A DNA stretch of 64,000 nt from Candidatus Puniceispirillum sp. Its GTDB lineage: Bacteria > Pseudomonadota > Alphaproteobacteria > Puniceispirillales > Puniceispirillaceae. The stretch lies in NCBI GenBank assembly GCA_016778895.1, contig JADHOR010000009.1, positions 1-64,000 of the forward strand, written 5' to 3'. The notes beneath the pieces were generated by a model, which saw nothing but the letters and a program-made list of their open reading frames with translations, did not search any database and was not told where the DNA came from. Positions within the stretch are counted from its first letter, which is position 1, and each line of letters begins with the position of its first letter. The position numbers and the translations under genes are program-made. This document shows positions 25,921-35,469 of this stretch, in pieces.

Positions 25921-25996
25921 ACCTTCACTGGTGTCCTCGTTATTATCGGCAAGGCGGCAGGTTTATGAGGTCTGTGCACACAAAAAAGAGGTGGCG

Positions 25997-26719
25997 ATGT
26001 CAATGCGTATATTATGGGTGCTATTTGGCCTGATCGTTTTTAACCCGGCGCAAGCTGACATGGCGATCAGGATGGACCAGACTGAGGTGTCGATTAGAGC
26101 CTTTGCCGAATTTGTCGCGGCTACTGGATTTCAAACCAAGGCCGAGCTGGATGGCGGTATGGTCTATGAAGCGGGATGGGTGGTCAAGCCGGGCTGGAAC
26201 TGGCGGCAGCCATACGGCACGGTCAGCCCGCCAGATGAGCCTGCGGTTCATCTGACTTTTGATGAGGCGGCGGCCTATTGCACATGGCGCGGCCAGCGAT
26301 TGCCGAGCCGTGACGAATGGATCAATGCCGCTTATACCGAACAACGCCTCGCCCCACCCGCACCGTTCCGGCGTGGTGTTACATATGATTACCCAACCGG
26401 AGACAGCCCGCATGGTGCCAATTGCCTTGGTGACTGCGGCACCGAGGCAACACCGGTTTCTGGCAAGCGTGACTATAGCCGCCAGCTTTATCGCGGGTTT
26501 GGCCACGCACCGGTTGGGCGAACAAAACAGGGCGTTAACGGGCTGTTTGATATGGGCGCAAATGTCTGGGAATGGGCAGTGCTTGGCACTGGTTCGGCGC
26601 AGGCCACGATGGGCGGTTCATGGTGGTACGGGGCGCAACAGATGACGGCCGATTACGGTGCCACCAAGCCGCGTGAAATGGCGGTGGTCTATATTGGGTT
26701 TCGCTGCATCGCCAAATAA
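25997..26719 (+). CDS. Formylglycine-generating-enzyme (SUMF1)-like protein, exported
   Basis: 240 residues from ATG 25997 (AGAGGTGG ahead). A signal peptide (MRILWVLFGLIVFNPAQA) precedes the FGE-sulfatase fold: MDQTEVSIRAFAEFV, PAVHLTFDEAAAYCTWRGQRLPS, NGLFDMGANVWEWA and the C-terminal IGFRCIA. I do not see the oxidising Cys pair of true FGE, so this is more likely a periplasmic ligand-binding or accessory member than a sulfatase activator. No sulfatase gene is in the window. Confidence 0.82.
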   Translation: MSMRILWVLFGLIVFNPAQADMAIRMDQTEVSIRAFAEFVAATGFQTKAELDGGMVYEAGWVVKPGWNWRQPYGTVSPPDEPAVHLTFDEAAAYCTWRGQRLPSRDEWINAAYTEQRLAPPAPFRRGVTYDYPTGDSPHGANCLGDCGTEATPVSGKRDYSRQLYRGFGHAPVGRTKQGVNGLFDMGANVWEWAVLGTGSAQATMGGSWWYGAQQMTADYGATKPREMAVVYIGFRCIAK

Positions 26720-26924: not shown

Positions 26925-28067
26925 ATGCCTGATTTAGTTGATTTTGGATTTGGAACACAAATCCGCAAATCCCCCTATTTTGATGCGACCGTAGAGTGGG
27001 GCGCGAAGGCGTTTTCAGTGTATAATCATATGTATATACCGCGTGACTTCGGCGATCCTGTTGCCAATTTTTGGAATTTGGTGAATACGGCAATCTTGTG
27101 CGACGTGGCGGTCGAGCGGCAGGTGCAGATCACTGGCCCGGATGCGGCAAGATTTGTCCAGCATCTAACTCCGCGTGACCTCAGCACGATGGCCGTTGGA
27201 CAATGTAAATATGCGCTGATCACTAATGCCAAGGGTGGCATTTTGAATGACCCGATCATCCTGCGGTTGGCTGAGGATAAATTCTGGATCTCACTAGCCG
27301 ATAGCGATGTTTTGCTCTGGGCGCAGGGTGTTGCGGTGCATGGCGGGTTTGATGTTGATATTTGTGAGCCGGATGCATCACCGCTTCAGCTTCAAGGACC
27401 GCGGTCAATGGATGTGATGAAGGCGCTGTTCGGGGAAGATATTGCCACATTAAAATATTACTGGCTTCGCCATCTGACGCTCGATGGCATCGAACTCGTA
27501 GTGTCTCGGACCGGTTGGTCAAGTGAGCTCGGTTATGAGATTTATCTGCAAGATGGATCGCAAGGCAGTCGCTTATGGAACAGGATTATGGCAGCAGGAG
27601 AGCCTTTTGGGCTAAAGCCCGGCCATACGTCAAATATCCGCCGGATTGAGGGAGGTATGCTGTCATATCACGCCGATATGGACATCAACACGAACCCGTT
27701 TGAGCTGAGGCTGGACCGGCTGGTTGCGCTAGATACTGCGCATGATTTTATCGGCAAGTCGGCGTTGCAGGCTATCCGCGCGAAAGGACCAGCCCGCCGA
27801 CAGGTTGGCCTGATCATCGACGGCGCGCCTCTTACGGCTCCCAATACTAAATTCTGGCCGGTAAGCATGAATGATAAGGTGGTCGGCAAGGTCACATCAG
27901 CCGTCTATTCACCGCGTCTTGAACAGAATATCGCCCTCGCGATGGTTGAGCGCGTTGTCGATCAAATTGGTGCTGAGGTCACGGTCGATGCCATTGGTGG
28001 ATTGCGTCAAGCACGCCAGGTTGAAATGCCGTTTTATGACCCGAAGAAAAATATCGCCAAAAGCTAA
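26925..28067 (+). CDS. DmdA-like aminomethyltransferase (GcvT) family protein
   Basis: 380 residues. The SVYNHMYIPR block (31-40), VAVERQVQITGPDA (61-74), LTPRDLS (81-87), GGILNDP (104-110) and ISLADSD (122-128) are shared with DMSP demethylase DmdA. The region following GGMLSYHADM reads NPFELRLDRL (257-266) where DmdA as I recall it has NPxECGLxKFC, so it may be a sister clade rather than true DmdA. The family transfers a methyl or aminomethyl group to tetrahydrofolate. GAGGAG precedes ATG 26925. A cupin gene follows. Confidence 0.75.
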   Translation: MPDLVDFGFGTQIRKSPYFDATVEWGAKAFSVYNHMYIPRDFGDPVANFWNLVNTAILCDVAVERQVQITGPDAARFVQHLTPRDLSTMAVGQCKYALITNAKGGILNDPIILRLAEDKFWISLADSDVLLWAQGVAVHGGFDVDICEPDASPLQLQGPRSMDVMKALFGEDIATLKYYWLRHLTLDGIELVVSRTGWSSELGYEIYLQDGSQGSRLWNRIMAAGEPFGLKPGHTSNIRRIEGGMLSYHADMDINTNPFELRLDRLVALDTAHDFIGKSALQAIRAKGPARRQVGLIIDGAPLTAPNTKFWPVSMNDKVVGKVTSAVYSPRLEQNIALAMVERVVDQIGAEVTVDAIGGLRQARQVEMPFYDPKKNIAKS

Positions 28068-28229
28068 ATGCTACTTTTATAATTAAGGTGGTTGCAGCCA
28101 TCGATATCTGGCAATGCGAGTATCAGCGGGTGCATAAGGCTCGTTAGCCAGATCCCGGTTTTCTATGTCGTTGCTGACGCGGACCGTAACCGATGATTTG
28201 CCGCAGCTGTTTTGTTTTTTGGGGGTAAT

Positions 28230-28763
28230 ATGGGTAGAAAAATCAGGCGTGTTGTTACTGGCCACGATGAAAATGGTGTTGCAACAGTGATTATGGACGG
28301 CGAGGCCGATTGTATTTTGCAACGCCCAAACCGGCCGGGCGTGACTTTGACAAACCTGTGGCAAAGTACAAAGACGCCAGCCACAATGGAACGCCATGAT
28401 GATCCGGTGAACGGCCCGTTGATCCTGCACCCTCCCAAAAATGGTTCGGTGTTTCGCATCGTCCAATTTGATCCGGAAAACCCCGAAGAACTGGCCAAGC
28501 TTGACGGAAAATCAGCCTTTGCGGAAATGGGGGCCAGCGCAAATATTGTTGAAGGCGCGCGCCACCCTTTCATGCACCGGACCGACAGTCTGGATTATGC
28601 AGTGGTTCTGACCGGCGAGATTTACATGATGATGGATGAGGATGAATATCTACTAAAGGCCGGAGATGTCATTGTCCAGCAAGGCACAAACCATGCCTGG
28701 TCGAACCGTGGTACCGAGCCTTGCCAGATTGCATTTATCCTAATTGATGCCGAAAAGGACTAG
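28230..28763 (+). CDS. Cupin-domain protein
   Basis: 177 residues from ATG 28230 (GGGGGT 5 bases upstream). The N-terminal half has KIRRVVTGHDENGVATVIMD. The C-terminal cupin barrel has FMHRTDSLDYAVVLTGEIYM and LKAGDVIVQQGTNHAWSNRG, carrying the usual His/Glu-type metal positions in part. These bipartite cupins occur beside aromatic, sulfur or amino-acid catabolic genes. It is downstream of the DmdA-like gene on the same strand and could share its transcript across a 162-bp gap. Confidence 0.82.
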   Translation: MGRKIRRVVTGHDENGVATVIMDGEADCILQRPNRPGVTLTNLWQSTKTPATMERHDDPVNGPLILHPPKNGSVFRIVQFDPENPEELAKLDGKSAFAEMGASANIVEGARHPFMHRTDSLDYAVVLTGEIYMMMDEDEYLLKAGDVIVQQGTNHAWSNRGTEPCQIAFILIDAEKD

Positions 28764-28792: not shown

Positions 28793-30052
28793 CTAGTTAG
28801 CGCTGGTAATGTTTTTCATCACGCCCAAGAACTGCGCGACCTCGGCGATACTATTATAATGGCACATTGAAACACGAACACAGCTATCAAGCCCAAGCGG
28901 ATCAAGAACATTACCTGAATAATGGTCGGCCTTTCGAAGATGGGTTCGCACGCCCTCACTGTTCAGCCGGGCGACCACATCTTTCGAGGCAATGCCATCA
29001 ACATAGAGCGAGACCAGCCCTTCACGCGCCGGATTATCAACCCCTCCAATGATATGCACATTTGCCATTTCGGCAAGGCCGGGCAAATTACCGGTACCGT
29101 GAATCATCGCATCAGTGAGGGTTTTTTCATGCTCATGGATCGCCTTGCCTGCTGCCTCAAACCGGCCACGCTGATCGCTGCTGCCAGAAATTTCGCCGCC
29201 AAGCCATTCAAGATATTCAACAACATCAGACATGGTGGCATAGGCACCGGTATCGCGTGTGCCAAGTTCCCAGTTCTCGGCTGGCCCGCCAACAAGACTG
29301 TCATGCGGCAATGCAGACATTCGATCCGAAATCCACGCCAGACCATAACCATGCCGCGAAAACATTTTGTAAGGTGAGATGACATAGCCATCAATATCAT
29401 AAGCGCCGATATTGATCTCACCGTGTGCCGCGTGCTGAATGCCATCGACAATGATGAAACAATCCGGGCTTACGGTGCGAATCGTCTTGGCGATGGCTCC
29501 AACATCCATGCCCATGCCGGTAACTGGTGACGTGTGCAGAATTGTTGCAACTAATGTGTCTCTGGTAATTTTGCTGGCATAGGCATCGGCACTGACAAGC
29601 CCCCGCGCATGATCATGCTCGATCAGCACATGTTGTTTGCCACTGATCGGCGCCCAACGTGCGCAGGCACTTCGGGTTGCCGGATGCTCAATCGTCGAGC
29701 CCAGAACAATACCGGCTTTGTCGGTGCCAAGACAGGCATTCATCACCAGGCGGAAAATGAGCTCGGTGCCACTTTCCCCAACAAAAAACTGCCCCTTTGG
29801 CGCATTCATAAAGGCGCGTAAATCCTGCTTGGCCTTATCGATGATGCGGACCAGTTCATGCGACCCGGGATTATCCCGCCCCTGATTATCGGGGATCGCG
29901 GCAAAGCGCGTAGATGTATCAACAACTCTATCTAAGGTCAGAGCTCCGCCAGCATTTTCAAAAAAGACGCGTGGCCCCTGAACTGGACAGCTGTCAACCT
30001 GGGCAAATTGCCCGCGAATATTATCAAGAAGATCTGCAGAGATTTGGGTCAT
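28793..30052 (-). CDS. Class V PLP aminotransferase-like (cysteine-desulfurase-like) protein
   Basis: 419 residues from ATG 30052; the frame is open to a TTG at 30130 and the ribosome site is weak. PLP features are ESGTELIFRLVMN (phosphate loop), IVDGIQHAAH (Asp203, His207) and ISPYKMFSRHGYG (Schiff-base Lys229). It begins with VFFENAGGALT, like the group of class V enzymes annotated as cysteine desulfurase-like or isopenicillin-N-epimerase-like. A transamination, lyase or epimerase reaction is possible. It is convergent with the cupin gene. Confidence 0.82.
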   Translation of the reverse strand: MTQISADLLDNIRGQFAQVDSCPVQGPRVFFENAGGALTLDRVVDTSTRFAAIPDNQGRDNPGSHELVRIIDKAKQDLRAFMNAPKGQFFVGESGTELIFRLVMNACLGTDKAGIVLGSTIEHPATRSACARWAPISGKQHVLIEHDHARGLVSADAYASKITRDTLVATILHTSPVTGMGMDVGAIAKTIRTVSPDCFIIVDGIQHAAHGEINIGAYDIDGYVISPYKMFSRHGYGLAWISDRMSALPHDSLVGGPAENWELGTRDTGAYATMSDVVEYLEWLGGEISGSSDQRGRFEAAGKAIHEHEKTLTDAMIHGTGNLPGLAEMANVHIIGGVDNPAREGLVSLYVDGIASKDVVARLNSEGVRTHLRKADHYSGNVLDPLGLDSCVRVSMCHYNSIAEVAQFLGVMKNITSAN

Positions 30053-30212
30053 AGGAAAATGCTTTCGAATGGAGTTTTTAACAGATGTAACCACACCATA
30101 CAGGAAGGTAAAGCGATTTTGATAGGTCAATTATCTAACTCGAAAATGGCCATCCTGCAGGCCTGATCAGAAGGTTTGAAACTATCCATCGGCTAGTGCT
30201 AATGTTCTGACC

Positions 30213-31815: not shown

Positions 31816-33147
31816 TTAGGTGGGAAGGCTGGTCTTTATTGCGTCATGCAAACGCGCAACCAGCATATCGATTTCATCATTGGAAATGATAAATGGCGGC
31901 GCCAGCAAAATATGATCACCAAATTTGCCGTCAATGGTACCTTGCGACGGATAACAGGCAAGCCCCGCCGCTAGCGCGTTCTGTTTGATTTTGCCAGCAA
32001 TGTTCAAAGCCGGGTCAAACGGGGTTTTGTCGGTGCGTGATGCCACTAGCTCAATACCTATAAATAGCCCCCTGCCTCGGATGTCACCAATGTGCGGATG
32101 CTGCCCCAATACCGATTGCAACCGTGTTTTGAGATAGGCACCTTTTTCTGCCACCGTTTCAACCAGACCATCGTCAACCAGCCTGTCGAGGACTGCATTT
32201 GCCGCCGCTGCCGCAATCGGGTGACCAAGATAGGTGTGACCATGATGGAAAAAGCCCGACCCTTGCTCGATTGCATCATGGATATAATCACGGCATAGCA
32301 TCGCACCAATAGGCTGATAACCGGCACCAAGCCCTTTGGCGATCGTGATAATATCGGGCATCACCCCATCGATATCGCAGGCAAAGAGTGCGCCTGTCCG
32401 CCCCATTCCGCACATCACCTCGTCAAAAATCAACAGCACGCCATAATGGTCACAAATCTCTCGAATACGTGCCAGATATCCCGGTACCGGACACAGCGCG
32501 CCCGACGTTGCGCCAACCACAGGCTCTGCCATAAATGCCATAACCTGTTCCGCGCCGAGCCGTAAAATCTCCGTCTCAAGTTCGTTTGCAACCCGAAGAC
32601 CATAATCCCCTTCGGTTTCATCCTCGCGCTTGTCCCGCCATGCATAGCAGGGGGAAATCAGACTGGTTTCGATCAGCAAAGGCGCAAAGTTCTGCCGCCG
32701 CCACTGGTTGCCTCCGGCAGCAAGCGCACCAAGAGTATTGCCATGGTAGCTTTGGTGTCTGGCAATGATGTGCTTGCGTTCGGGCTGGCCGATTTCAGTG
32801 TAATATTGGCGGGCCAGTTTGAGTGCGGCCTCGATTGCTTCCGAGCCACCTGAAACCAGATAAACTCGATTGATGTCACCGGGCGCATAGCTGGCGAGGC
32901 GCGCCGCTAGCTGTTCGGCGGGCGCGCTGGTGAAAAAGGATGTGTGCGCGTAAGAAAGGCTTTCTACCTGCGCCAGGATAGCGTTTTTTACATGGCTGTC
33001 AGAATGCCCCAAACATGATACGGCCGCGCCGCCTGATCCATCGAGATAGGCCTTGCCATCAGTGTCCATTAAGAAACATCCGTCGCCAGCCGCCGCCACG
33101 GGCAGATCTGATTCACTGTTTCGCTGGAAGATAAACTGGCTTTTCAT
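31816..33147 (-). CDS. Class III PLP aminotransferase
   Basis: 443 residues from ATG 33147 (GGGGAA upstream). LDGSGGAAVSCLGH is near the start. The PLP site residues are SGGSEAIEAALKLARQYY, the Tyr/His in HQSYHGNT, Glu208, Asp242 (LLIFDEVMCGMGRTG) and Lys271 (ITIAKGLGAGYQPIG). The family transfers omega- or alpha-amino groups to pyruvate or 2-oxoglutarate (beta-alanine, GABA, diamines, taurine). It lies at the head of the peptide-hydrolase island, so it may deaminate one of the released products. Confidence 0.88.
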   Translation of the reverse strand: MKSQFIFQRNSESDLPVAAAGDGCFLMDTDGKAYLDGSGGAAVSCLGHSDSHVKNAILAQVESLSYAHTSFFTSAPAEQLAARLASYAPGDINRVYLVSGGSEAIEAALKLARQYYTEIGQPERKHIIARHQSYHGNTLGALAAGGNQWRRQNFAPLLIETSLISPCYAWRDKREDETEGDYGLRVANELETEILRLGAEQVMAFMAEPVVGATSGALCPVPGYLARIREICDHYGVLLIFDEVMCGMGRTGALFACDIDGVMPDIITIAKGLGAGYQPIGAMLCRDYIHDAIEQGSGFFHHGHTYLGHPIAAAAANAVLDRLVDDGLVETVAEKGAYLKTRLQSVLGQHPHIGDIRGRGLFIGIELVASRTDKTPFDPALNIAGKIKQNALAAGLACYPSQGTIDGKFGDHILLAPPFIISNDEIDMLVARLHDAIKTSLPT

Positions 33148-33359
33148 GTCAAGTTCCCCGCAAAAATGCCGACCATTCACGCCGATCCCCGCCAGATAAA
33201 ATTAGCGCAAGCCTGATAAATATTGATAGATAAAAATTCATCTATTCGACAATCTTTTGTCTCGATTGCTGCTGTCCAATTTCAGATGACGGTCTGGACA
33301 AAACCGCACCGGTTCTGAATAGGGACTTTGTCAAATGCGCAATTTGCCTGTTGCGTTGC

Positions 33360-34127
33360 TCATCTTTTGATAATGGCGTTACCGGTGTAGGGAATGCTGT
33401 TATCGATAAGGTCCCAGATTTCACGACCCGTTGGGCTTTGCTGTTCTTCCATGATGTGCGCCACCAATCCGGCAGCCCGTGAAATTACTGCAAAGCCGCG
33501 CATGATGCCAATCGGAATGCCGGCTCCCATTAATACTGCAGCAGTTGCGCCGGTTGCATTGATCGTCAGATGCTTGCCATAAATCTGGTCAACATGATGC
33601 CCCAAGATTTTCAATATTTCGATTGGCCGTTTGTCGATTTCGTCGTATGCCATGGCAATCTCGAACAGTTTTGGGCTGCGTGGATCATCAGGGCGATGCA
33701 AATGATGACCAAAGCCGGGCATATATTTTGCGTTGACACGGTGTTGTTGCACGATGCGCTGGCACGCGGCGTCATGGCCATCTGGGTCATTGGCGATTTC
33801 GGCCAGAATTTTTGCAGCATTTTCCATTGTGCCAATAAACTGGCTGGCGACATTCAATAGGCCGGCGGCAACTGCCGATTGCATTGCCTCAGGCGCAGAG
33901 AGATAGGTCATGCGGGCGGCTATCGCGCTTGGGGTAAAGCCATGTTCCATCAAGGTAACCATTACCGTATCAAGGACCGCGCGCTGGCCGGGTGAGGGGG
34001 CGACACCGATAATGTGATAGAACATCGCATCGGTAAAACTCATCTTACCCATTACGTCATCAACAAGGTTCTTGTCTCGCAGATATAGGGCTTCAAGCGT
34101 ATGCGTCGATAGTTTTGTCTCAGCCAT
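33360..34127 (-). CDS. Citryl-CoA-lyase-like, short citrate-synthase-family protein
   Basis: 255 residues, much shorter than citrate synthase (about 430). It keeps FTDAMFYHIIGVAPSPGQRAV and the His region PGFGHHLHRPDDPR (137-150), equivalent to the P-G-F/Y-G-H loop. The usual Asp in the N-V-D segment is replaced (INATGATAAVL, 189-199). Such small proteins are annotated as citryl-CoA lyase, making acetyl-CoA and oxaloacetate, but the missing Asp makes the reaction uncertain. It is 29 bases downstream of the M20 gene, likely one operon. Confidence 0.8.
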   Translation of the reverse strand: MAETKLSTHTLEALYLRDKNLVDDVMGKMSFTDAMFYHIIGVAPSPGQRAVLDTVMVTLMEHGFTPSAIAARMTYLSAPEAMQSAVAAGLLNVASQFIGTMENAAKILAEIANDPDGHDAACQRIVQQHRVNAKYMPGFGHHLHRPDDPRSPKLFEIAMAYDEIDKRPIEILKILGHHVDQIYGKHLTINATGATAAVLMGAGIPIGIMRGFAVISRAAGLVAHIMEEQQSPTGREIWDLIDNSIPYTGNAIIKR

Positions 34128-34156
34128 GGAAAAGCTCCCTGTTCAGTGCAAAATTT

Positions 34157-35296
34157 TTAGAAATTCGCGTCAATTCCCATCAATAGACCGGCCATCAACC
34201 TGCCGCGCATTGCCAGACTATCAATTTCAATATGTTCTTCAAGTGTATGATATTTGTCGCCAGCTACCCCCAGACCGTCAAGCGTCGGAACACCCATTGC
34301 GCCAGTGAAATTACCGTCGCTGCCACCGCCCGAACTTTCATGACGAAATGGCTGGCCTAGCTGCGTGGCAAGATCGTTGGCAAGGTCGACAAGTTTCAGG
34401 CCGGCCTCTGTTGGTGTCCAGACAGGCCTTGTCAGGCCAAGCTTGACCTCGGTAATAACCTCGCCCTCTGGATCATTATGGGCAAGCATTCTAGCAATGC
34501 CATCATCGAGATCCGCCTGGCGTTTTGACATTGAAAGAACCTCGGCACTGGCCTTTGACGAGACGCAATTTACCCATTGTCCGGCGTGCATAACGCCGAC
34601 GGAAAAACTGCAATCCTCACTTGTCATGGCTTCGATATCGATAATTTTTTCGGCCATTTTACGAATTGCTGACCGTCCTTCAGAAAGCCGCAATCCGGCA
34701 TGGCTTGGCCTGCCATAGGTGGTGACATCATAGCGGGCGACGGCATAACGGCCAGATGTAACACCATTACCTTTTCGCGCTGGCTCAGGTATCAGAACTG
34801 CCTTGGCGCGGGCGGCTTCGGCTTCGATAAGGGCGCGGGTGTGCGGCGATCCGATCTCTTCGTCCGAGGTGAATAGGACGGTGATGGGAAGCGGTGTTTC
34901 AAGCCCGGCCTTTTGCAGCTGCCGGATTGTCTCAACCGCCAGATAATTACCCCCCTTCATATCGCAGATACCCGGCCCATAGCAGCGGTTGCCATCACGT
35001 TGAAACGGTAATTGTGCCAGCGTGCCAAGCGGGTGAACAGTATCCATATGGCCGATAATCAACAGGCCGGGCTGGTCGGGCTGTGCGTGGGGAAAGCGCG
35101 CACGAATACAATCACCGATTGAGGGATGCGGTGTAATGCGCTCAATCGATGCTCCCATGACGGCAAGGTCATGCGCGGCAATATCCTGCATCCGGTTTAC
35201 TGCCGCCGGATCATAGCTGGGGCTCTCGCATAAAACCCAAGGCCGCAACCCGGCAAGCATGTCCTCATCATTAAAACCTAGCTGCGTTATCTGCAT
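34157..35296 (-). CDS. M20-family metallopeptidase (glutamate-carboxypeptidase-like)
   Basis: 379 residues. The first metal His83 is in IIGHMDTVHP, the bridging Asp112 in GICDMKGG and the catalytic Glu146-Glu147 in TSDEEIGSP. GRPSHAG lies in the dimerisation lid and HESSGGGSDGNF near the end. ATG 35296 is chosen because GGGAGG lies 6 bases upstream; an ATG overlapping that site at 35302 and one at 35317 are less likely. Zinc-dependent removal of C-terminal glutamate, or N-deacylation, is expected. It diverges from the gamma-glutamyltransferase gene. Confidence 0.88.
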   Translation of the reverse strand: MQITQLGFNDEDMLAGLRPWVLCESPSYDPAAVNRMQDIAAHDLAVMGASIERITPHPSIGDCIRARFPHAQPDQPGLLIIGHMDTVHPLGTLAQLPFQRDGNRCYGPGICDMKGGNYLAVETIRQLQKAGLETPLPITVLFTSDEEIGSPHTRALIEAEAARAKAVLIPEPARKGNGVTSGRYAVARYDVTTYGRPSHAGLRLSEGRSAIRKMAEKIIDIEAMTSEDCSFSVGVMHAGQWVNCVSSKASAEVLSMSKRQADLDDGIARMLAHNDPEGEVITEVKLGLTRPVWTPTEAGLKLVDLANDLATQLGQPFRHESSGGGSDGNFTGAMGVPTLDGLGVAGDKYHTLEEHIEIDSLAMRGRLMAGLLMGIDANF

Positions 35297-35469
35297 AATC
35301 ATCCTCCCTCGCATCATGTGCCTGCTTTATCCTGACGTTCAATCATGACGTTAGCTTGTCGCTTATCACAAAAACAAGTCATTAGCTGGCAATCGCTTAT
35401 CATCAGGGTCTGTGAAGAGTTTACTGGCAAGAATTTCAAAAACCTGTTTAAGCTTTCAGGAGGTTAGGC

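Follow-up and report, generated by a model that had tools for sequence, protein, structure and literature searches.

Is a protein that resembles the DMSP demethylase DmdA, and departs from it in conserved blocks, still a DMSP demethylase? The question is raised by a gene at 26925–28067 (+ strand) of the window, a stretch of 64,000 nucleotides from Candidatus Puniceispirillum sp. (contig JADHOR010000009.1). An earlier note, made from the sequence alone, had proposed that the gene belongs to a sister clade of DmdA that acts on another osmolyte, possibly in partnership with a neighbouring cupin. The open reading frame, together with Pfam, NCBIfam and AlphaFold2 results, describes a DmdA-like protein of the GcvT family, 380 aa long, and a member of a group referred to below as clade 2.

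Family and fold of the window protein

A Pfam search assigns GCV_T and GCV_T_C domains to the product, and the blocks quoted in the earlier note—SVYNHM, VAVERQVQITGPDA and ADSD, as well as ELRLDRL—are all present in it. Since the Pfam matches of this protein and of the cupin lie well over the gathering scores, neither is a chance reading frame. The top curated model is the DMSP demethylase model NF009133, which the window protein matches at 372.7 bits, below the 410-bit cut-off; the 20 clade-2 genes found in 19 genomes score between 357 and 387 bits. A PDB sequence search gives P. ubique DmdA (3tfh) as the best match, and the same structure is closest to an AlphaFold2 model of the window protein (pLDDT 91.6), with a Z of 47.2 and 1.9 Å over 365 residues at 35% identity. 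Aligned with P. ubique DmdA and with that of an R. pomeroyi strain, the window protein shows 38% identity in each case; for the clade-2 rows, identity to the second of these runs from 31 to 39%. Dimethylglycine dehydrogenase and T-protein follow 3tfh in the structure comparison (Z about 43). The window protein has the GcvT-type three-domain fold together with conserved folate-site residues, and its DmdA-like nature, as first read from the short blocks, is borne out. By its placement in a clade of its own (see below), and by the curated NCBIfam cut-off, it is not DmdA. Judged by sequence, the gene is real and DmdA-like, and is not a canonical dmdA.

The same comparisons bear on whether the protein might, in the manner of LigM or DesA, remove an O-methyl group from a methoxylated acid with the help of THF. 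LigM acts together with an enzyme of the MTHFR type, its structures match the fold of the window model (Z 29–30), and the CoA ligase and hydratase found beside many clade-2 genes would suit a phenylpropanoid. However, the LigM model gives 69 bits (cut-off 580) and the DesA model 74.5 bits (cut-off 800), and the fold is nearer to DmdA than to LigM, which makes such an activity highly improbable.

Residues that mark clade 2

Residue counts are given over 144 clade-2 rows, which include twice-fetched genes (e.g. the R. pomeroyi copy, L071 = L113) and near-identical strains, and over 13 DmdA-clade rows; five near-duplicate rows of other groups, small groups and outgroups are omitted. The equivalents of the THF-site residues S122, E204 and Y206 of DmdA, mapped by inference from the 99S/178E/180Y numbering of PMC7487153, are retained throughout clade 2: the first two in 144 of 144 rows and the third as Tyr in 127 and Phe in 17.

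The earlier note had drawn attention to ELRLDRL (residues 260–266; 27702–27722, + strand) as the departure from DmdA, and the clade alignment and a DNA comparison with 97%-identical relatives divide this claim in two. Residue 261 is Cys in 12 of 13 DmdA-clade rows (ECGFDQY in P. ubique) and Leu in 134 of the 144 clade-2 rows, so the change from Cys to Leu is clade-wide. Residue 262, on the other hand, is Gly in 141 of 144 clade-2 rows (consensus ELG), and the Arg of the window is private to it. Its codon, AGG at 27708–27710, is GGG or GGA in 97%-identical homologues at four loci, two of which (L010 and L221) probably represent a single gene; an Arg at the equivalent position also occurs in one DmdA-clade row. 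R262 was therefore rejected as a functional marker, being either a private one-base variant or a base error with no bearing on function.

In the alignment, residues 200–202, 234–239 and 249–250 are stronger markers of the clade than ELRLDRL. The first lie in W198-S-S-E-L-G-Y-E205 (codons 27516–27539, + strand), where the DmdA clade has W/Y-S-K-Q-G-G-Y/F-E: clade 2 has S200 in 137, E201 in 144 and L202 in 141 of 144 rows, against K in 12, Q in 13 and G in 13 of the 13 DmdA-clade rows. The second form H234-T-S-N-I-R239 (codons 27624–27641, + strand) in place of C-P-N-x-I-E; in the clade-2 pattern HTS-x-I-R the H, T and R are found in 144 of 144 rows and the S in 143 of 143, while the DmdA clade has C, P and E in 13 of 13 and N in 12. 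The third, H249-A250, replaces G-N of DmdA. Thus K199-Q200-G201, C233-P234-N235 and E238 of DmdA, each present in 12–13 of 13 DmdA-clade rows, are absent from the window protein. A Trp, W171, has been called key for DMSP (PMC7487153); taking it as W197 of P. ubique, its equivalent is Trp in all 144 clade-2 rows and in 6 of 13 DmdA-clade rows, the other 7 having Tyr. It therefore does not discriminate between the two groups and was dropped as a marker for DMSP, speaking neither for nor against that substrate.

Phylogeny and distribution

In a maximum-likelihood tree of 49 proteins, which leaves out the functional SAR92 DmdAs, the window protein falls in clade 2 (20 proteins, support 99/99), separate from a DmdA clade of 8 proteins (100/99). 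The P. ubique enzyme belongs to the latter, as does the gene of R. pomeroyi strain SZCCDBG043 that passes the cut-off; the R. pomeroyi row in the tree stands for that strain and not for the assayed DSS-3 protein. Forcing the window protein inside DmdA is rejected by the AU test (p-AU 9.5e-70). The description of the group as a sister clade is right in so far as it is a clade apart; the group nearest to DmdA in the tree is, however, the paralogue set P3 (93/86), and DmdA with the entire clade 2 as one group is also rejected (p-AU 0.006).

Of 386 sampled alphaproteobacterial genomes, 19 carry a clade-2 gene (at least 60% identity) and 32 have a gene that passes the DmdA cut-off, both tallies being raw counts in which related genomes are counted separately. 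Thirteen of the 19 clade-2 genomes also hold an over-cut-off DmdA gene, five do not, and one (G726) is ambiguous, with 419 bits from a 54% relative. A scan of named genomes yielded at least 591 relatives of any closeness; among the matches listed, 79 loci were kept, all at least 72% identical and many with marine names, which span SAR116, Rhodobacterales, Halomonadaceae and other Gammaproteobacteria. Clade 2 is thus a real, widespread and uncharacterised subfamily, and its presence in 19 of 386 alphaproteobacterial genomes and at the 79 loci kept from the matches listed suggests that it probably serves a common metabolite.

Three paralogues each are found in R. pomeroyi SZCCDBG043 (clade-2 locus L071) and in the window genome, the latter with clade 2, P3 on contig C32 and DmdA on C25. 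The canonical DmdA of the window genome (L252) scores 562 bits, and its P3 paralogue (L251) retains the SKQGG motif of DmdA. In an alphaproteobacterial genome of 1.4 Mb (G650) about 6 kb separate a clade-2 gene from a canonical DmdA (L223, 8702–9871 and 15814–16920; L255), and an OsmC–hydratase–ligase trio lies about 10 kb from them. A genome of the same genus as the window (G694) carries a second clade-2 copy (70%; L228, 6609–7718) behind a gene that by eye resembles glycine amidinotransferase. Haloarcula and other haloarchaeal plasmids bear homologues 36–39% identical to the window protein.

The downstream cupin

The reading frame at 28212–28763 (+ strand) matches Cupin_2 in Pfam and does stand next to the clade-2 gene, as had been noted. 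If its start is ATG 28230, which is likely, it begins 162 bases downstream of that gene on the same strand. A functional partnership, which the earlier note had entertained, would draw on this arrangement and on its retention at seven loci. These seven, however, are all close relatives of the window, and within 6 kb no cupin of this family was found at the other 121 of 128 clade-2 loci, a set in which 29 have short flanks. A promoter-like site at 28054–28083 precedes the cupin, although such sites are no commoner than in shuffled sequence. Nor does the cupin have the motif of the cupin DMSP lyases. Motif 1 of the cupin DMSP lyases has two His, a Glu and two Tyr, and motif 2 a His (PMC5395565); inspected by eye, motif 1 here, HRTDSLDYAVVLTG, contains a single His and a single Tyr, with Asp in place of the Glu, and the His of motif 2 is present. 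As the second His and the Glu are missing, a DMSP lyase was rejected by the criteria of that source. The cupin is probably a neighbour and not a pathway partner; a role beside the clade-2 protein is scarcely credible.

Gene neighbourhood of clade 2

Clade-2 loci were collected at 128 sites, of which 99 had adequate flanks and 29, whose flanks were short, were excluded; the radius was 6 kb. An enoyl-CoA hydratase lies within this distance in 54 of the 99 loci and an acyl-CoA ligase in 48 (both in 45, either in 57), an Lrp regulator in 40 and an OsmC protein in 34. FolD is found in 15 and PurU in 12, and any gene of the MTHFR, FolD or PurU kind in 15. At 35 of the 99, the window among them, there is no hydratase, ligase or C1 gene within 6 kb. 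Family names come from representatives: L071 for the hydratase (PRK08139) and ligase (PRK08162), and L052, L054 and L058 for the C1 genes. The genes for regulator, demethylase-like protein, OsmC, hydratase, ligase, FolD and MTHFR are clustered in Sedimentimonas (L031) and Paracoccus (L027). Creatininase-, agmatinase- and glycine-amidinotransferase-like genes, TRAP and sugar-ABC genes were set aside as neighbours of single loci that are not commonly shared, several of them named by eye.

One MTHFR-like protein (c19) has no Pfam match and matches a solved 5,10-methylene-THF reductase, 7xg9, at 2.6e-43. The MTHFR genes bear on whether clade-2 proteins are methylene-type aminomethyltransferases that form 5,10-methylene-THF with an oxidase partner, like the GcvT domains of dimethylglycine dehydrogenase, sarcosine oxidase and TMAO demethylase. 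Membership of the GcvT superfamily, 217.1 bits with the TMAO demethylase model and an FAD oxidoreductase near a 55% relative on a Lichenihabitans plasmid are in keeping with such an enzyme. The clade-2 protein is, however, stand-alone, and no oxidase occurs among the families common to many clade-2 loci. The window protein also misses the cut-offs for TMAO demethylase (1100), SoxA (136.5 bits against 1164) and GcvT (NF001567, 186.3 against 300; TIGR00528, 154.6 against 235.85), and the MTHFR of the cluster points to 5-methyl-THF. This activity is accordingly considered very unlikely.

The cluster ligase of L071 fits PRK08162 at 894 bits (cut-off 677), and its identification as DmdB was rejected, the methylthiopropionyl-CoA ligase model giving 304 bits against a cut-off of 822. 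Ligases of the same subfamily adjoin DmdA-like genes of the groups P3 (L162, L164, L165) and P5 (L193, L194, L198), the gene names there resting on L162 and L193, and the pairing of demethylase and ligase may therefore be a general theme that serves several substrates. Ligase and hydratase are broad families, which counts against reading a specific pathway from them. An acyl-CoA dehydrogenase, required in the role of DmdC if the pathway were that of DMSP and searched for with 28 such genes of the R. pomeroyi strain as references, lies within 6 kb in 3 of the 128 loci (391, 389 and 415 aa); in none of the three does it directly follow hydratase and ligase, and in our judgement none is of DmdC size.

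A second, isofunctional DMSP demethylase, in whose pathway the ligase would stand in for DmdB and the hydratase for AcuH, can be weighed against these observations. The nearest solved relative is DmdA itself, and low identity to DmdA is compatible with the activity: in SAR92, where the gene order is dmdA-acuH-dmdB-dmdC, proteins 37.9–40.2% identical to R. pomeroyi DmdA restore methanethiol in a dmdA mutant (PMC10746254), which speaks against a change of substrate. The 31–39% of the clade-2 rows, measured against the R. pomeroyi strain, comes close to this, and the order gene–hydratase–ligase resembles that of SAR92. No dmdA-acuH-dmdB-dmdC cluster was recognised in 293 genomes of a gammaproteobacterial order and 112 of a family, which possibly include no SAR92, or, by similarity to reference proteins, in the gene layouts of 63 stretches covering clade-2 loci and other paralogues. 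Against a second DMSP demethylase, and in favour of a changed substrate, stand the coexistence with an over-cut-off DmdA gene in 13 of 19 genomes, a ligase other than DmdB, the rarity of a neighbour for the DmdC step and the blocks altered at residues 199–201 and 233–238. We regard a second DMSP demethylase as unlikely, though deserving of serious attention.

The window's own genome

How the window fits this pattern is seen elsewhere in its genome, where contig C54 carries, next to each other, counterparts of the L071 hydratase (68% identity) and ligase (71%). The pair is preceded by an amino-acid-type ABC transporter and followed by an FAA-hydrolase-like gene, both named by eye, and over 230 aa the binding protein of the transporter shares 61% identity with one encoded upstream of the L071 clade-2 cluster. 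Nine of the 386 genomes have the ligase at 70% identity or more, and all nine are among the 19 with clade 2. Of five loci from the same family whose flanks are adequate, two have the hydratase close to the clade-2 gene. The link of the window gene to hydratase and ligase is thus one of genome content.

A class-V aminotransferase-like gene (28793–30130, - strand; best model TIGR01976, below its cut-off) lies beyond the cupin. Its relative in the R. pomeroyi strain (L071) precedes the clade-2 gene at a distance of about 850 bases, on the far side of Lrp. Seven of the 128 loci have such a gene inside the 6-kb radius; it is a possible partner. From the likenesses of the C54 pair, the transporter and this aminotransferase to L071, a comparison of two lineages, it seems that SAR116, to which hits to Ca. 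Puniceispirillum suggest that the window belongs, has this set as well, divided between two loci.

Other genes of the window may be recorded here. Upstream, 25931–26719 encodes an FGE/SUMF1-domain protein with, by eye, an apparent signal peptide; it keeps this position in five related loci and matches SenA weakly (55 bits, cut-off 420). On the - strand, 31816–35317 holds a PRK07483 aminotransferase (738 bits, cut-off 485), a citryl-CoA-lyase-like homologue of citrate synthase and a PRK07473 M20 hydrolase. An aminotransferase that by eye resembles the PRK07483 one lies near the clade-2 gene of G608 (L226).

Plasmid copies

Matches occur on 32 plasmids, six of which carry genes at least 73% identical to the window protein. 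In every one of these the order is Lrp, demethylase-like gene, OsmC, hydratase and acyl-CoA synthetase; three (pP88_b, pP24_c and pP30_b) are typed as conjugative, and in pP30_b tyrosine recombinases flank the cassette region on both sides. The earlier warning that automated annotation could call such genes DMSP demethylases does not hold for these six copies, each named 'glycine cleavage T C-terminal barrel domain-containing protein'. Five other plasmid matches, at 37–41% identity, do carry the name DMSP demethylase. The 55% relative on the Lichenihabitans plasmid has MTHFR, purU, folD and an amino-acid ABC transporter alongside, and an aminotransferase near it in addition to the FAD oxidoreductase.

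Proposed function

On balance, we somewhat favour the view that the clade-2 protein is a THF-dependent demethylase of a small onium carboxylate other than DMSP, with 5-methyl-THF as product and a CoA-dependent tail. Clade, fold, conserved THF-site residues and gene linkage are directly established, and it is from these that we infer the reaction, the class of substrate and the order of steps. Family membership makes transfer of an activated methyl group to THF likely. A methyl group would thus pass from an onium carboxylate—a sulfonium or quaternary ammonium zwitterion, DMSP- or betaine-like—to THF, forming 5-methyl-THF, which in organisms with the full cluster would be oxidised to formate by MTHFR, FolD and PurU; the presence of these three beside clade-2 genes fits such a fate. 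The other product would be an acid, as the CoA ligase and hydratase suggest, and this demethylated acid may be activated as a CoA ester by the PRK08162-type acyl-CoA ligase and then processed by the enzyme of the enoyl-CoA hydratase family. An Lrp/AsnC regulator and the OsmC protein would form part of the set, and the Lrp gene and the amino-acid-type transport of some loci hint at an amino-acid-like zwitterion as substrate. In the window genome the hydratase and ligase steps would be supplied from the other contig, behind the amino-acid-type ABC transporter. Methylmercaptopropionate was dismissed as a substrate on chemical grounds, as it is not an onium. The other osmolyte of the earlier note accordingly finds a gene context that fits another compound, the change of substrate itself being deduced from that context and from the altered residues.

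A bolder version, which we consider quite unlikely, would make clade 2 the missing demethylase of non-DMSP sulfonium osmolytes such as dimethylsulfonioacetate and gonyol, and its cluster a complete, plasmid-borne catabolic cassette. Gonyol is a 3-hydroxy acid, and after demethylation a ligase and a hydratase-type enzyme would be all that it needs. R. pomeroyi DSS-3 releases methanethiol from dimethylsulfonioacetate, which DmdA does not recognise, and an unrecognised demethylation pathway has been inferred; gonyol is consumed by R. pomeroyi, Halomonas and Sulfitobacter without release of methanethiol (PMC7221440). A literature search, in the portions of the sources available, found neither the clade-2 gene cluster nor its substrate named.

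Should the substrate be something other than DMSP, dmdA surveys that rely on loose homology mistake one reaction for another; should it be DMSP, clade-2 bacteria have an unrecognised second enzyme. Either outcome alters estimates of methanethiol and methyl-carbon flux, and the cassette, which is partly on conjugative plasmids, offers a small and testable gene set.

Comparison with known systems

Homologues with a DmdA-like structure have been set apart before as functionally diverged 'non-DmdA' proteins (PeerJ 2020, PMC7487153). Compared by description, they and clade 2 are both DmdA-like and uncharacterised; a gene cluster or C1 module is described here for clade 2 and not, in the available text of that study, for the 'non-DmdA' homologues. 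SAR11_1265, a DmdA-like aminomethyltransferase beside metF for which a second demethylation was guessed (PMC3160333; also PMC5069961), shares with some clade-2 loci a DmdA-like paralogue next to an MTHFR-like gene. To judge from that MTHFR-like neighbour, and from what these sources give, it seems to correspond to the paralogue group P4 (L225) and not to clade 2. LigM and DesA have the same superfamily fold as clade 2 and carry out THF-dependent demethylation, their substrates being aromatic methoxy compounds.

The closest known system remains DmdA (NF009133; 3tfh of P. ubique, and R. pomeroyi), with which clade 2 has in common its length, three-domain fold and the Ser, Glu and Tyr of the THF site. 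It differs in forming a separate clade below the model cut-off, with another cluster ligase and frequent coexistence with DmdA; and in the window protein K-Q-G (199–201), C-P-N (233–235), E238 and C260 of DmdA are all replaced.
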